From: Neoroseomonas soli
Lineage (GTDB): Bacteria > Pseudomonadota > Alphaproteobacteria > Acetobacterales > Acetobacteraceae
DNA: 64,000 nucleotides
Direction of reading: 5' to 3'
Assembly: GCF_018129065.1 (NCBI RefSeq)
Contig: NZ_JAAEDM010000008.1
Coordinates: forward strand, 1 to 64,000
A program made the position numbers and the translations under genes. Positions within the stretch are counted from its first letter, which is position 1. Every line of letters begins with the position of its first letter. The notes under the pieces were generated by a model. The model worked only from the letters and a program-made list of their open reading frames with translations. It was not told where the DNA came from and ran no database searches. Shown in pieces: positions 5,229-25,820 of this stretch.

Positions 5229-5449
5229 GCGAGTCCCTTCCTGTTGGGGTTCGCATGCAGGCGCTGCCGGGCGGTAGAGTGTAGGCGAACCTCTCCCGAC
5301 TCGCGGGCCTCTTCGGCGTCGCGCGCGAGATCCTCGGCAGCGCGGCTGCGCAGCCGCAGCAGGCCGCGCGCCAGGATGTCGCAGACCTCGCGGAGGTGGG
5401 GCGCGAGATGGGCGCCGCTGGGCCGGTAGGATGGATTCGCCATCCCCAT
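5225..5449 (-). CDS. Small helical protein, first gene of the recombinase operon
   Basis: This 74-residue basic protein reads MGMANPSYRPSGAHLAPH and is followed by a predicted helix (REVCDILARGLLRLRSRAA). It overlaps the DUF2924 gene by four bases, so all four genes from 5449 to 2996 are translationally coupled. A gene of this size and sequence type often heads DUF2924-recombinase cassettes. It has no known function. The alternative start two codons in (position 5443) is possible. Confidence 0.6.
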   Translation of the reverse strand: MGMANPSYRPSGAHLAPHLREVCDILARGLLRLRSRAAEDLARDAEEARESGEVRLHSTARQRLHANPNRKGLA

Positions 5450-5571
5450 GATTACCTGGGCTGCGGTCGGAGTGTTTCAGCACCCAACCGCAGATTGGAT
5501 TCGACAGCCGGATACCTGATGATGTACCCGCTTCGTTCTCCCCCCCCATCCCCCCGACAGGACCGCGCTAC
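5450..5571. promoter_or_regulatory. Divergent intergenic region between integration and early genes
   Basis: These 122 bases separate the leftward recombinase operon from the rightward early operon and should hold both promoters and any lysogeny operators. A C-run (about 5540-5555) precedes the GTG start at 5572. An AGGA at 5560-5563 is the likely ribosome-binding site. No clear -35/-10 pair or inverted operator could be read. Confidence 0.35.
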
Positions 5572-12915: not shown

Positions 12916-13682
12916 TGCTCGACTTCAACAGCCGCAGCCAGACCTCCGCGCATGTGAATGCCGCCATCGACGCGGCGCTGGTCGCGGCCAATCAGGCGAC
13001 GCCGCCGCGCAGCTACCTGGGCGGCTCGCGCCTCGGCCATGCCTGCGAGCGCGCGCTGCAGTTCGAGTTCGTGAAGGCCCCGAAGGACGAGGGCGCCGAC
13101 TTCGACGGACGGCTGCTGCGCATCTTCGGGATCGGCCACGCGCTGGAGCACGTCGCCGTCGCCTGGCTTCGGGGTGCCGGCTTCGATCTCTACACCCGCC
13201 GCGGCGGTGGCGACCATGGCGAGCAGTTCGGCTTCTCGGTCGCCGGCGGTCGCATCCGCGGCCATGTGGACGGCGTCTTCGCCGGCGGCCCGACCATCCC
13301 TGGCATGGCGTTCCCGGCGCTATGGGAATGCAAAACCATGAACGCCAAGGCCTGGCGCGAGACGTCGAGCAAGGGCGTCGCCGTGGCCAAGCCGATCTAC
13401 GCGGCGCAGATCGCCGTCTACCAGGCCTACATGGACGTCGCGATGCCGGGCGTGGCGGACAATCCGGCGCTTTTCACCGCCATTAACAAGGACACGGCGG
13501 AGCTGCACCATGAGCTGGTGCCGTTCAATGCGGAGCTGGCGCAACGCATGTCGGACCGGGCGGTGCGCATCCTGGCCGCGACCGATGCTGGCGAATTGCT
13601 GCCCCGCGTTGCCGCTCAGGCCGATCACTTCGAGTGCCGGTTCTGCCCCTGGGCCAAGCGCTGTTGGGCGCAGCCTGCATGA
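12915..13682 (+). CDS. Cas4-like PD-(D/E)XK exonuclease
   Basis: A 255-residue nuclease. The PD-(D/E)XK core is visible as RGHVDGVF (about residue 115) followed by LWECKTM (about 137-143) and a later YAAQIAVYQAYM (conserved Q/Y motif). A single cysteine near the N-terminus (LGHACERALQFEF) and a C-terminal trio CRFCPWAKRCW are placed as in the 4Fe-4S cluster of Cas4/AddB nucleases. It would resect DNA ends for phage recombination. It is coupled to the primase-ATPase gene by an ATGA overlap. Confidence 0.8.
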   Translation: MLDFNSRSQTSAHVNAAIDAALVAANQATPPRSYLGGSRLGHACERALQFEFVKAPKDEGADFDGRLLRIFGIGHALEHVAVAWLRGAGFDLYTRRGGGDHGEQFGFSVAGGRIRGHVDGVFAGGPTIPGMAFPALWECKTMNAKAWRETSSKGVAVAKPIYAAQIAVYQAYMDVAMPGVADNPALFTAINKDTAELHHELVPFNAELAQRMSDRAVRILAATDAGELLPRVAAQADHFECRFCPWAKRCWAQPA

Positions 13683-16051
13683 CGGAATGGGGCGACTTCA
13701 ACGATGCCGCGCCGCTGCCGGAGGATGGCGCGAGCGAGCTTCCCGGCGCTGGGCAGTCGATGTCGGCGGCCGATGGGCCCATCGCGCCGGACATCGAGCA
13801 GATCGCCGCCTTCCTCGACGTGGTGTTCGGCTATTGCGACGGGCTGATCCCGGTCCGCGGCTTCGTCGATCAGGGCCAGGGGCGCGACACCAAGCCGCAC
13901 AACATCTGGGTGCCGGCCGATCGGCACGCCGCCGTATCCCTCAGCGCCTATGCCACCTGGGCCGCGCGCGAAGGCAGCGCCGTCTATGTCATCCCCGGCA
14001 CTGTCGTCGAGCAGGGCCAGGCCCGCGCCGAACATGTGCTGCAGATGCAGACGGTGGTGGTCGATCTCGACGCCGGCGCCATCACCGCCAAGCTGGCGCA
14101 TCTGGTCCACCACCTGGGCGCGCCCACCCTCCTGGTCGAAAGCGGCGGCCGCACCGCCGAGGGTGCCGCCAAGCTCCATGCCTGGTGGCGGCTGACGGAG
14201 CCGGCCGAGGGCGAGGATCTGGCCCGCCTCTGCGCGCTGCGCGGCGAAATCGCGGAGAAGGTTGGCGGCGACCTTCACTTCCGCTCCGCGCACCAGCCGA
14301 TCCGCGTGCCCGGCACGGTCCACCAGAAGCATGGCGTGCAGCGGCGCGTCTCGATCCGGGAGCACCGCCCTAGGGTCGAGGTGGAGCTCCCCGACTTCGC
14401 CGCAGCGGTGGCAGCCATGCCCACCATGCCGGGCCTGGAGGCGCCCACCGCCACCGCAGGTGCCACCCGCCCCAGCCTCGATGCCGTCCTGACCACGCCA
14501 GTGCGGGAAGGCTCTCAGGACGCCTGGACCCGCTTCCAGGGCGCCAGCGCGGCCATCGGCCACTTCGTCCGGATGGTCCACGAGGGGCGCATGACCGGCG
14601 ACGAGGGCTGGGAGGCCATCTGCCAGTACAACGCCGCGTGCCTTCGGCCGGAATGGCCGCTGGACCGCCTCAAGGTCGAGGCCGATGCGATCTGGGCCCT
14701 CCATGTCGATCGGAACGGGCCGCCCCTTCTTCGTGCCGCCGCGGCCTCACCCAGCGCCATCCCCGCACACACTCTGGGCGCGCTGCTCGACGACACCTCG
14801 CCCATGCCCGACGACCTGATCGGACCTCGCCTGCTGACCCCGGGTGGGATGCTCGTCCTCGGCGGCGCGCCGAAGGTCGGCAAATCCGACTTTCTGATCA
14901 GCCTGCTCGTGCACGCCGCCGCCGGCGCGCCCTTCCTGCGCTTCACGGCACCACGCCCGCTGCGCGTGTTCTATCTCCAGGCCGAGATCCAGTACCACTA
15001 CCTCCGCGAGCGCCTGCAGCAACTCCGGCTCGATCCTTCGATCGTCGCCCGCGCGCGCGACACCCTCGTCGTCACCCCCAAGCTGCGCATGCTGCTCGAC
15101 GACCAGGGCGTGCCCCTCGTCGCGGCTGCCATCCGCGCTGCGTTCCCGGATGCGCCGCCGGACATCATCTGCATCGACCCCATCCGCAACCTCTTCGACG
15201 GCGGGCCCGCGGGCGAAGGTGAGAACGACAACGCGGCGATGATGTTCTTCCTGCAGAGCCGCGTGGAGGCGCTGCGCGACCAGGTCGCCCCCGAGGCCGG
15301 CATTATCTTCGCCCACCACACGAAGAAGCTCAGCAAGCAGCAGGTCAAGGACGATCCCTTCCTGTCGCTCTCGGGCGCCAGCGCGCTGCGCGGCTTCTAC
15401 ACCTCCGGCATGATCCTCTTCCGGCCCGACGAGGAGCAGACCGAACGCGAGCTGCATGTCGAACTCCGCAATGGCCCTGGCCTCGAGCCGATGCTGGTCG
15501 ACAAAATCGCGGGCCGCTGGGTGGAATTCGACCGGCGCGGCGAGCGCCTGGTCAGGCAGGACATCGGACGCAAACTCGATGCCGAACGGCTGCGCAAGCA
15601 GGATGTGATTCTCGGCATCCTGCTCGATGAGGCAGCTGAAGGCCGGCTCTATTCGACCATGCAACTGGCCGAGAAATTCGAAAACAAGGTCGGGCTCGGC
15701 AGCAAGCACACGATCCGCGAGCGGTTGAGCGTGCTCGCCACCAAGGGCTTCGTGAAGTTCCGCCGAGACGGCACCGAGTTCGGCCTTGGCGTCGTCCGGT
15801 CGCGGTTCGGGTACCTCTGCGTGGAGGGCATGACCTTCGGCCCCGAGGTCGAAACTGTTGATCCGCATACCGGTGAGGTGACCACCAGCGCCCGCCGCGT
15901 CCTGCCCAGCCACTTCAAATGCCCCCAATCCGGCAACTGCCTGGACGTCGAAAATCCGGAGGTGTGGGTCTACCCGGAAGGCGTCTTGGACGACCTCACT
16001 CCTGAGGAGTTAGGCCTAACTCCTCACTCCTCCCCGCGGACAACGCCATGA
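13679..16051 (+). CDS. Phage primase-helicase-like replication protein (RepA-type AAA_25 ATPase)
   Basis: A 790-residue protein. Residues 50-260 look like a primase-polymerase fold of the RepB type (QTVVVDLDAGAIT, LVESGGRTAEG, HQPIRVPGTVHQKHG). An AAA_25/RepA ATPase follows, with Walker A GGAPKVGKSD (about 395), Walker B IICIDPIRNLF and the sensor FAHHTKK. A C-terminal winged-helix-like part (KHTIRERLSVLATKGF) ends in an acidic tail. It is the likely replication initiator/helicase. The start at 13679 overlaps the nuclease stop (ATGA), so the longer frame is unlikely. Its last codons contain the first copies of an 11-mer repeat, which ties the gene to a candidate origin. Confidence 0.8.
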   Translation: MTEWGDFNDAAPLPEDGASELPGAGQSMSAADGPIAPDIEQIAAFLDVVFGYCDGLIPVRGFVDQGQGRDTKPHNIWVPADRHAAVSLSAYATWAAREGSAVYVIPGTVVEQGQARAEHVLQMQTVVVDLDAGAITAKLAHLVHHLGAPTLLVESGGRTAEGAAKLHAWWRLTEPAEGEDLARLCALRGEIAEKVGGDLHFRSAHQPIRVPGTVHQKHGVQRRVSIREHRPRVEVELPDFAAAVAAMPTMPGLEAPTATAGATRPSLDAVLTTPVREGSQDAWTRFQGASAAIGHFVRMVHEGRMTGDEGWEAICQYNAACLRPEWPLDRLKVEADAIWALHVDRNGPPLLRAAAASPSAIPAHTLGALLDDTSPMPDDLIGPRLLTPGGMLVLGGAPKVGKSDFLISLLVHAAAGAPFLRFTAPRPLRVFYLQAEIQYHYLRERLQQLRLDPSIVARARDTLVVTPKLRMLLDDQGVPLVAAAIRAAFPDAPPDIICIDPIRNLFDGGPAGEGENDNAAMMFFLQSRVEALRDQVAPEAGIIFAHHTKKLSKQQVKDDPFLSLSGASALRGFYTSGMILFRPDEEQTERELHVELRNGPGLEPMLVDKIAGRWVEFDRRGERLVRQDIGRKLDAERLRKQDVILGILLDEAAEGRLYSTMQLAEKFENKVGLGSKHTIRERLSVLATKGFVKFRRDGTEFGLGVVRSRFGYLCVEGMTFGPEVETVDPHTGEVTTSARRVLPSHFKCPQSGNCLDVENPEVWVYPEGVLDDLTPEELGLTPHSSPRTTP

Positions 16052-16163
16052 AATCAATGGCTTGGGAGGACAGAGGAGTTAGGTCCCTAACTCCTCCCGC
16101 TTCGCACCTAACTCCTCTTTTTCCATTCCATATCAATAGGTTGTACCCGGTGGAGGAGTTAGG
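16004..16163. repeat. Six copies of GAGGAGTTAGG in both orientations (candidate phage origin)
   Basis: Forward copies of GAGGAGTTAGG lie at 16004-16014, 16073-16083 and 16153-16163. Reverse copies (CCTAACTCCTC) lie at 16015-16025, 16086-16096 and 16107-16117. The first pair is a perfect 22-bp palindrome, the second is separated by two bases, and the last reverse and forward copies flank an AT-rich stretch (16117-16145). The cluster begins inside the 3' end of the primase-ATPase gene. Iteron-like sites beside an initiator and an AT-rich segment are the layout of a replication origin. An operator is the alternative. Confidence 0.7.
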
Positions 16164-16359
16164 TGTTGCTCCCACCCCCTACGGGGGTGTGCATGCGCGC
16201 CTCAACGGCGCGCGCACACCACACCTCGCGCGACCGGGTTGGGCGCGTGGGCCTCCCCCGCTGGGACCACCCCACCCGATGCCGGGCAGCGACGGCGAGC
16301 TCCGCCAAGAACCGCGCCGTCGCCGCCCTCACCAGGATCATCCCCTCTCGGAGACCACC
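16052..16359. other. Non-coding region between initiator and resolvase genes
   Basis: These 308 bases hold most of the 11-mer repeats and two adjacent hairpins: CACCCCC/GGGGGTG (16173-16179 and 16183-16189) and GCGCGCC/GGCGCGC (16195-16201 and 16207-16213). A frame open from 16048 runs through it, but its composition is not protein-like before the resolvase start. The rest (16214-16359) shows nothing further. Confidence 0.5.
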
Positions 16360-23864: not shown

Positions 23865-25820
23865 GTGCGCCGGCGCGTCGGCGCCATGCTGCGCCCGCCG
23901 CCGCAGCTCACCGTCTCGGAATGGGCCGAACGACACCGCATGCTCGGCAGCCGCGCCTCGGCCGAACCCGGCCCCTGGCGGACCGGCCGCACGCCGTATC
24001 TGAAGGACGTGATGGACGCGCTGTCGGCGGTGCATCCCGCCCGGCGCGTCGTCTTCATGAAGGGCGCCCAGGTTGGCGCCACGGAAAGCGGCAACAACTG
24101 GCTCGGCTACATCATGCACCATGTGCCAGCACCGGCACTGGCGGTGCAGCCGACCGTGGAACTGGCCAAGCGCTTCTCGCGCCAGCGCATCGACCCGCTG
24201 CTGGAGGAAACGCCCGCGCTGCGGGAGCGGGTTGCCCCGGCGCGGGCTCGCGACAGCGGCAACACCATGCTGTCGAAGGAATTCCCCGGCGGCATCCTGG
24301 TGCTGACCGGGGCCAACAGCGCGGTCGGGCTGCGGTCGATGACGGCGCGGTTCCTGTTCCTCGACGAGGTCGATGCCTATCCCGGCGACGTCGCCGGCGA
24401 AGGTGATCCGATCGCACTCGCCGAGGCCCGCGCCCGGACCTTTGGTTGGCGGCGCAAGGCCTTCCTGGTCTCGACGCCCACCATCGCCGGCCGCAGCCGG
24501 ATCGAGCGGGAGTACCTAGCCTCCGACCAGCGCCGGTTCTTCGTGCCGTGCCCCGCCTGCGGGGAGATGCAGTGGCTGCGCTTCGAGCGCCTGCTCTGGG
24601 ACAAGGGGGCGCCCGAGACAGCGCGGTATCACTGCACCGCCTGCGACCACCCGATGCAGGAGCACGACAAGACCGCGATGCTCGGCGGCGGGGAATGGCG
24701 CGCGACGGCTGAGGGCCAGGATCCGCACACGATCGGCTTCCACATCTCGGCGCTGTACTCGCCGGTGGGCTGGCTGTCCTGGGCGCAGATCGCCCGGGAT
24801 TGGGAGGCGGCCCAGGGCAAGCCCGAGGACATCAAGACCTTCAAGAACACGGTGCTCGGCGAGACCTGGCAGGAGCAGGGCGAGGCGCCGGATTGGGAAC
24901 GCCTGGTCGAGCGCCGCGAAGATTTTGCCATGGGCGTGGTGCCTACGGGCGCCCTCGTCCTCACCGCCGGCGTCGACGTCCAGGACGACCGCCTGGAGTG
25001 TGACGTCTGGGGCTGGGCGGAGGGGTTCTCCTCCTGGCTCGTTGACCACATGGTGATCCCGGGCAGCCCGCGCGACCGCGAGACCTGGGACGAACTGGCG
25101 AAGCTGCTCGCGCGCGACTGGCCGCGCCAAAGGGACGACAAAGGTAGCGGCGGTGCCATGCGCATCGCCCGCCTCTGCGTCGACACCGGCGGCCGCGACA
25201 CCGCCGCCGTCTATGGCCATCTGCGTCGGCTGCGCGATCCGCGCATCGCACCGACCAAGGGCGTCGATGGCTGGAACCGGGCGCAGCCCGTCCAGGGCCC
25301 GACGCCGGTGGATGCGCTGGTCGACGGCCGGAAGCTCCGGCGCGGCCTGAAGCTCTGGACCGTCTCCGTCTCCACCTGGAAGGCCGATCTATACCGCCGG
25401 CTGTGGCTCGGCCGCGGCGACGCGGAGGAGGTGCCGCCCGGCTGGGTGCATCTGCCCCGGGGCATCGAGGCGGAGTGGGTCAAGCAACTGGTCGCCGAGC
25501 AGCTGCGCACCACCAAGGATCGCCGCGGATTCGCGCGGCAGGAATGGGCAAAGCTCAGGGAACGCAATGAAGCGCTGGACTGCGCCGTGCTCGCCCGCGC
25601 CGCCCTCTGGCTGCTCGGCGCCGACCGCTACGGCGAGCGCTTCTGGCAGCAGCTGCGGGACCAGATCGCCGATGCCCCGCTGCGGCCGAGCGAGCTTCCC
25701 ACCGCTGGGAACGTCGCTCCGCCGTCGCCGCCGCGGGCCGAACTGACGACGCCCGCAACACCACCCAGCGCCCATCGCCCGCGTGGTTGGCTCGCCCCGC
25801 GCGCCGGCTGGCTGCGCTGA
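23865..25820 (+). CDS. Terminase large subunit (GpA family)
   Basis: A 651-residue packaging motor. The ATPase part has Walker A GAQVGATE (67-74) and Walker B FLFLDEVD (163-170). A zinc-ribbon (CPAC at 229-232, CTAC at 257-260) precedes the nuclease part with GVDVQDDRLE (about 370) and CVDTGGRD (about 440). GpA-type enzymes cut at cos sites, so cohesive ends are expected. The start is GTG at 23865, five bases after the small-subunit stop. An ATG two bases earlier is out of frame. Confidence 0.9.
   Translation: MRRRVGAMLRPPPQLTVSEWAERHRMLGSRASAEPGPWRTGRTPYLKDVMDALSAVHPARRVVFMKGAQVGATESGNNWLGYIMHHVPAPALAVQPTVELAKRFSRQRIDPLLEETPALRERVAPARARDSGNTMLSKEFPGGILVLTGANSAVGLRSMTARFLFLDEVDAYPGDVAGEGDPIALAEARARTFGWRRKAFLVSTPTIAGRSRIEREYLASDQRRFFVPCPACGEMQWLRFERLLWDKGAPETARYHCTACDHPMQEHDKTAMLGGGEWRATAEGQDPHTIGFHISALYSPVGWLSWAQIARDWEAAQGKPEDIKTFKNTVLGETWQEQGEAPDWERLVERREDFAMGVVPTGALVLTAGVDVQDDRLECDVWGWAEGFSSWLVDHMVIPGSPRDRETWDELAKLLARDWPRQRDDKGSGGAMRIARLCVDTGGRDTAAVYGHLRRLRDPRIAPTKGVDGWNRAQPVQGPTPVDALVDGRKLRRGLKLWTVSVSTWKADLYRRLWLGRGDAEEVPPGWVHLPRGIEAEWVKQLVAEQLRTTKDRRGFARQEWAKLRERNEALDCAVLARAALWLLGADRYGERFWQQLRDQIADAPLRPSELPTAGNVAPPSPPRAELTTPATPPSAHRPRGWLAPRAGWLR

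Follow-up and report, generated by a model that had tools for sequence, protein, structure and literature searches.

The DNA analysed here is the first 64,000 nucleotides of contig NZ_JAAEDM010000008.1 of Neoroseomonas soli (the window, at its full length). A gene for a predicted primase-helicase in the window ends in a cluster of short repeats, which raises the question of what such an array is for and which protein reads it. Based on comparison with related loci, we consider it highly probable (about 0.85) that the array serves an alphaproteobacterial prophage as its origin of replication, in which the repeats would act as iterons bound by the C-terminal domain of the initiator encoded immediately upstream, integration host factor (IHF) would bend the DNA, and domain and iterons would be exchanged between phages as a cassette.

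The array consists of six exact copies of the 11-mer GAGGAGTTAGG within 16004-16163, three on each strand (Table 1). The first two form a perfect 22-bp palindrome (16004-16025), and the third and fourth form an inverted pair with a 2-bp gap (16073-16096). The upstream gene stops at 16051, so that two copies lie within its 3' end. These six are the only exact occurrences in the 5,241,929-base genome, in which the reversed control pattern is absent. Two degenerate copies accompany them, and the one with a single mismatch recurs in most class A relatives whose array is intact. Multiple short repeats adjoining an initiator gene are the general pattern of an iteron origin. The initial annotation had described the same repeats, palindrome, gapped pair and overlap with the gene, together with an AT-rich segment and two hairpins (16173-16189 and 16195-16213), and all of these are present as it gave them.

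Table 1. Positions of the predicted initiator gene, the repeats and the associated sites in the window.
Feature	Position	Strand	Remarks
Initiator gene, 790 aa	13679..16051	+	PrimPol/AEP primase, RecA-type (SF4-like, AAA_25) helicase and C-terminal winged helix (predicted)
Putative C-terminal specificity domain, residues 616-765	15524..15973	+	winged helix and beta extension (modelled)
Degenerate copy of GAGGAGTTAGG	starts 15994	-	two mismatches
Iteron 1 (GAGGAGTTAGG)	16004..16014	+	exact copy, inside initiator gene
Iteron 2	16015..16025	-	exact copy, palindromic with iteron 1
Degenerate iteron (GAGGAGTGAGG)	16022..16032	-	one mismatch
IHF-consensus site 1 (AATCAATGGCTTG)	16052..16064	+	consensus match
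Iteron 3	16073..16083	+	exact copy
Iteron 4	16086..16096	-	exact copy
Iteron 5	16107..16117	-	exact copy
IHF-consensus site 2 (TATCAATAGGTTG)	16131..16143	+	full consensus match, inside AT-rich stretch 16117-16145
Iteron 6	16153..16163	+	exact copy
Two adjacent hairpins	16173..16213	+	CACCCCC-TAC-GGGGGTG; GCGCGCC-TCAAC-GGCGCGC

Relatives were collected from IMG/VR and GTDB by similarity to the 790-aa protein, and all statements on the family rest on this set. Nearly all of the approximately 140 initiator relatives have a repeat array at the equivalent place, which in the window and in most of these loci is immediately 3' of the initiator gene. The nearest relatives have the identical 11-mer at nearly equal offsets. 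Across the set the repeat units fall into at least 14 kinds, including GCAGTTTCGG, CAAGTTCCGCA, CAGTTGCCA, CAAGTTGGGA, CTCATATGAG and GAGGACGAA; as judged by eye, many share an AGTT core with differing flanks. Arrays are weak, or not detectable by simple counts, at a few loci (e.g., L065, L079 and L151). The same genome contains another related prophage (L173, G000:C10:37968-40217), whose initiator is 76% identical and whose repeats are of a different type, GCAGATTCG/GCAGTTTCG.

Repeat type follows the C-terminal domain of the initiator. Loci were scored as matching when their arrays shared k-mers, and comparison was limited to pairs with an identity of at least 90% across residues 1-560. Among these, identity over residues 620-760 is 96% where the repeats match (288 pairs) and 57% where they do not (431 pairs). 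At the DNA level, the window and loci L100, L022 and L099 are about 90% identical on either flank, and the drop, to about 45-70%, is confined to the interval between about -500 and +150/+200 bp relative to the stop codon. Specificity of the initiator for its iterons is found here by sequence comparison only, and the same comparison shows that the putative winged helix and the iterons move together, as a cassette, among phages with flanking DNA that is otherwise about 90% identical. The initial annotation had taken the array for an iteron-like origin with the product of 13679-16051 as its initiator, a view that the relatives support; the search for the repeat beside homologous initiators gave a stronger form of conservation than it had foreseen, place and layout being kept while the sequence covaries with the C-terminal winged helix.

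The 790-aa protein is predicted to combine a PrimPol primase, a RecA-type helicase and a winged helix in a single chain. AAA_25 is its only Pfam match (E 3e-20), and its PHROG match is DNA primase/helicase. In the AlphaFold model the N-terminus adopts a PrimPol fold, that of the archaeo-eukaryotic primases (AEP), with a Foldseek match to the S-2L PrimPol (6zp9, TMt 0.84), and the middle adopts a RecA-type helicase fold with matches to KaiC, RadA, DnaB and RSF1010 RepA (1nlf). Confidence in the model is moderate, with a predicted template modelling score (pTM) of 0.38 for the whole chain and 0.76 for the C-terminal domain by itself. The AEP motifs DxD and SxH are present as DLD (129-131) and SAH (203-205), and D129, D131, S203 and H205 are invariant in 55 relatives, as is the Walker A region GAPKVGKSD expected of a RecA-type ATPase. 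The C-terminal domain (616-765) was modelled with a pLDDT (predicted local distance difference test) of 85.5; its helices span 627-653, 660-667 and 679-689, followed by a wing at about 698-712. Its similarity to winged-helix structures is generic (VIA-align Z about 6): Foldseek with this domain alone gave no match at E <0.001, and neither did a sequence search of the PDB with a family profile give a match.

Two sites in the array are exact matches to the core of the IHF consensus WATCAANNNNTTR, as given in PMC10380432, and lie 79 bp apart; the first had been missed by the initial annotation. Sites scoring at least 12/13 are found in 103 of 114 loci, 73 of which have two, and successive sites are spaced 79-82 bp apart in 71 of 75 cases, across repeat types. 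Matches number 178 in 51 kb of array DNA (one strand), as against 9 in 239 kb of control gene bodies (both strands). The usual order is a minus-strand repeat, about 15-30 bp, the IHF site, about 4-13 bp, and a plus-strand repeat, which gives two half-origins, and in each of them inverted iterons enclose one IHF-consensus site. The genome encodes both IhfA and IhfB (ihfA and ihfB, above curated cut-offs). The AT-rich stretch had been described as being of the unwinding type; AT-rich it is, but since it is at least in part one of a pair of IHF-consensus sites at fixed spacing, it is poor evidence for a melting site.

The repeats might instead be an operator, through which the same winged helix controls the initiator or the downstream genes, with no origin involved. 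Plasmid iteron initiators often autoregulate, and the covariation, as evidence on binding, fits an operator as well as an origin. However, the array sits after the gene and overlaps its 3' end, two IHF sites at a fixed 79-82 bp with inverted flanking repeats exceed the needs of an operator, and the upstream protein is a primase-helicase, all of which make an operator improbable.

It could also be argued that a variable block of DNA simply recombines along with the C-terminus, without any recognition, given that domain and array are adjacent and that crossovers flank both together. The distribution of repeat type along the protein argues against this. Changes of type were counted by parsimony on FastTree trees of 100-residue segments from 114 sequences, with types set by signature words, and the counts are therefore approximate, although the step in them is large. 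Any segment within residues 1-580 requires 48-53 changes, segment 521-620 requires 40, segment 561-660 requires 23, and trees of residues 600-760 require 14-16, compared with a minimum of 13 and about 74 for shuffled labels. On the downstream resolvase DNA (+350 to +900) the count is 44. The number is flat over residues 1-540 and has dropped sharply by 600, with no decay over distance. Moreover, each array is built from one unit and units differ between arrays, and this, with the flat and then sharply falling counts, favours recognition over mere linkage. The residues most tied to repeat type (661, 671, 677, 684, 699-709 and 754) map, with the exception of 754, to helix 2, helix 3 and the wing of the modelled DNA-binding fold or adjoin these elements. 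Linkage without recognition is thus very unlikely.

In lambda cosB, too, an IHF site is flanked by short inverted repeats, so that a packaging site, with winged helices of the small terminase subunit on repeats around an IHF site, would have a similar appearance, but the terminase genes do not start until about 7 kb from the array, with the large subunit at 23865, and the repeats track the C-terminus of the primase-helicase, leaving this explanation with very little to recommend it. A phage attachment site (attP), suggested by the arm-type repeats that are likewise combined with IHF sites in lambda attP, can practically be dismissed, as it would be split to both ends of an integrated prophage whereas the array is intact within replication genes, and no integrase covariation is seen.

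Under the origin reading, the C-terminal winged helix of the PrimPol-helicase would bind the 11-bp iterons, and host IHF would bind both consensus sites, which are 79 bp apart and each have a minus-strand iteron upstream and a plus-strand iteron downstream. Bending of each half-origin by IHF might bring the flanking initiators together; the initiator would then open the DNA, its RecA-type helicase domain would load itself, and the PrimPol domain would synthesize the first primers. Several observations weigh against this reading. The C-terminal domain adjoins the array, and physical linkage therefore accounts for part of the association. GC skew across the window shows no turn at the array, a result that is uninformative as origin evidence. 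Finally, prophages residing in one genome share a repeat type in 5 of 25 pairs, compared with 7.1 expected (P 0.24), so that avoidance is not supported and no signal of incompatibility is seen.

The arrangement extends to some Wolbachia phages. In WOVitB (L167), the eight copies of AAG[AT]TGGCA present in the 7.8-kb locus are all confined to 5333-5541, a stretch that surrounds and follows the RepA stop at 5352, and the IHF-like AATCAATAGCTTA lies between copies. Viral contig L203, with a RepA that is 77% identical, matches this layout and has its array after 5100. In these two WO-type loci the protein is 37-50% identical and the array layout is kept. A search of phage records for relatives returned Wolbachia phage WO relatives only, and only two loci were recovered when viral contigs were searched with WO RepA. 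The array after RepA (L167:5333-5545, and L203) is a candidate origin of replication in some variants of phage WO; the accessible text of a WO genomics paper (PMC9203015) discusses only the chromosomal origin. Variants L168-L171, whose ATPase genes are shorter, have no such arrangement after those genes. In three of them (L169:1456, L170:533 and L171:536), an IHF-like TATCAATAGRTTA flanked by TGTATTATT/CAGTATTATT repeats is instead located upstream of the replication genes.

If this is correct, a common prophage group gains a precise and testable origin, and its loci offer naturally matched pairs of winged helix and DNA word in near-identical backgrounds, a useful resource for work on DNA reading by winged helices. 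Why origin specificity should change so often is a further question. One tentative answer, which we regard as rather less than an even bet, is that a widespread alphaproteobacterial prophage family reaching Wolbachia phage WO uses an undescribed type of origin in which, under diversifying selection, the cassette has repeatedly switched among 14 or more specificities, for instance as an escape from nucleases or satellites mimicking the initiator, along the lines of the arms race between PLE (the PICI-like elements of Vibrio) and phage ICP1. Stand-alone winged-helix copies able to mimic the initiator were absent from the searched genomes except for a truncated initiator gene in a draft genome (L205, G241:C183), which retains the C-terminal domain only, beside an intact type A array, and is probably a deletion remnant or an assembly chimera.

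Beyond the array, most relatives have paired hairpins, whose sequences take at least two forms while layout and position beside the array are kept. They have no T-run, and might be priming sites or single-strand structures. In a three-arm layout the middle arm is able to pair with either neighbour (e.g., CCCATAC / CGTATGGG / CCCATACG), and such forms are seen at 16173-16213, at L053:4312-4380 and after the array in L120 and L144. A further inverted repeat at 16284-16328 (GGGCAGCGACGGCG ... CGCCGTCGCCGCCC), with CCGCCAAG in its loop, directly precedes the RuvC-like gene, and a similar CCGCCAAG hairpin occupies that place in many relatives whose arrays are of other types. Rfam gave no match above the curated threshold. 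The neighbouring genes form a replication and recombination module comprising a Sak4-like annealase, a helicase, a Cas4-like exonuclease and the RuvC-like resolvase. Near relatives of the initiator come from Falsiroseomonas, Roseomonas and Siccirubricoccus.

A literature search found no description of this type of origin, which is weak evidence because subscription papers were largely outside the search. The closest parallels are the Rep or Pri-Rep systems of Staphylococcus aureus pathogenicity islands (SaPI) and other phage-inducible chromosomal islands (PICI; PMC6092414), and Cch2 of the staphylococcal cassette chromosome SCCmec (PMC7581432). In these the origin is directly 3' of the initiator gene, short iterons stand in two sets around an AT-rich part, and the repeats, located just beyond the helicase gene, are bound by the C-terminal domain of that helicase. 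Comparison and modelling support a similar binding of iterons by the C-terminal domain here. In contrast, their helicases carry DUF927 or D5/Primase_Cterm, neither of which was found in the 790-aa protein, where a RecA/DnaB/RepA-like fold with AAA_25 is fused to PrimPol; the present locus also has two IHF-consensus sites at fixed spacing, and belongs to full-size prophages. Module exchange in Vibrio PLE is the same phenomenon and has been bench-tested (PMC8263062), but PLE RepA has an N-terminal RepA_N domain, iterons of about 30 bp and two specificity groups, as against a C-terminal winged helix, iterons of about 11 bp and at least 14 unit types. In plasmids of the pRN1 type, too, a single protein contains PrimPol, helicase and winged-helix domains, and an essential region lies just 3' of its gene (PMC4234260), although pRN1 needs a 100-nt stem-loop, has no recognised iterons and uses a superfamily 3 helicase. 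The PrimPol-PV1 supergroup (PrimQH-like) shares AEP, RepA/DnaB-type ATPase and winged helix, and the winged helix was suggested to recognise an origin; the accessible text of that study (PMC5862659) describes no origin for these proteins. Finally, in lambda and the Stx phages iterons also lie beside or inside an initiator gene in the replication module (PMC7466680). Lambda O, however, is neither helicase nor primase, and the lambda iterons, about 19 bp long, stand inside the O gene as direct repeats.
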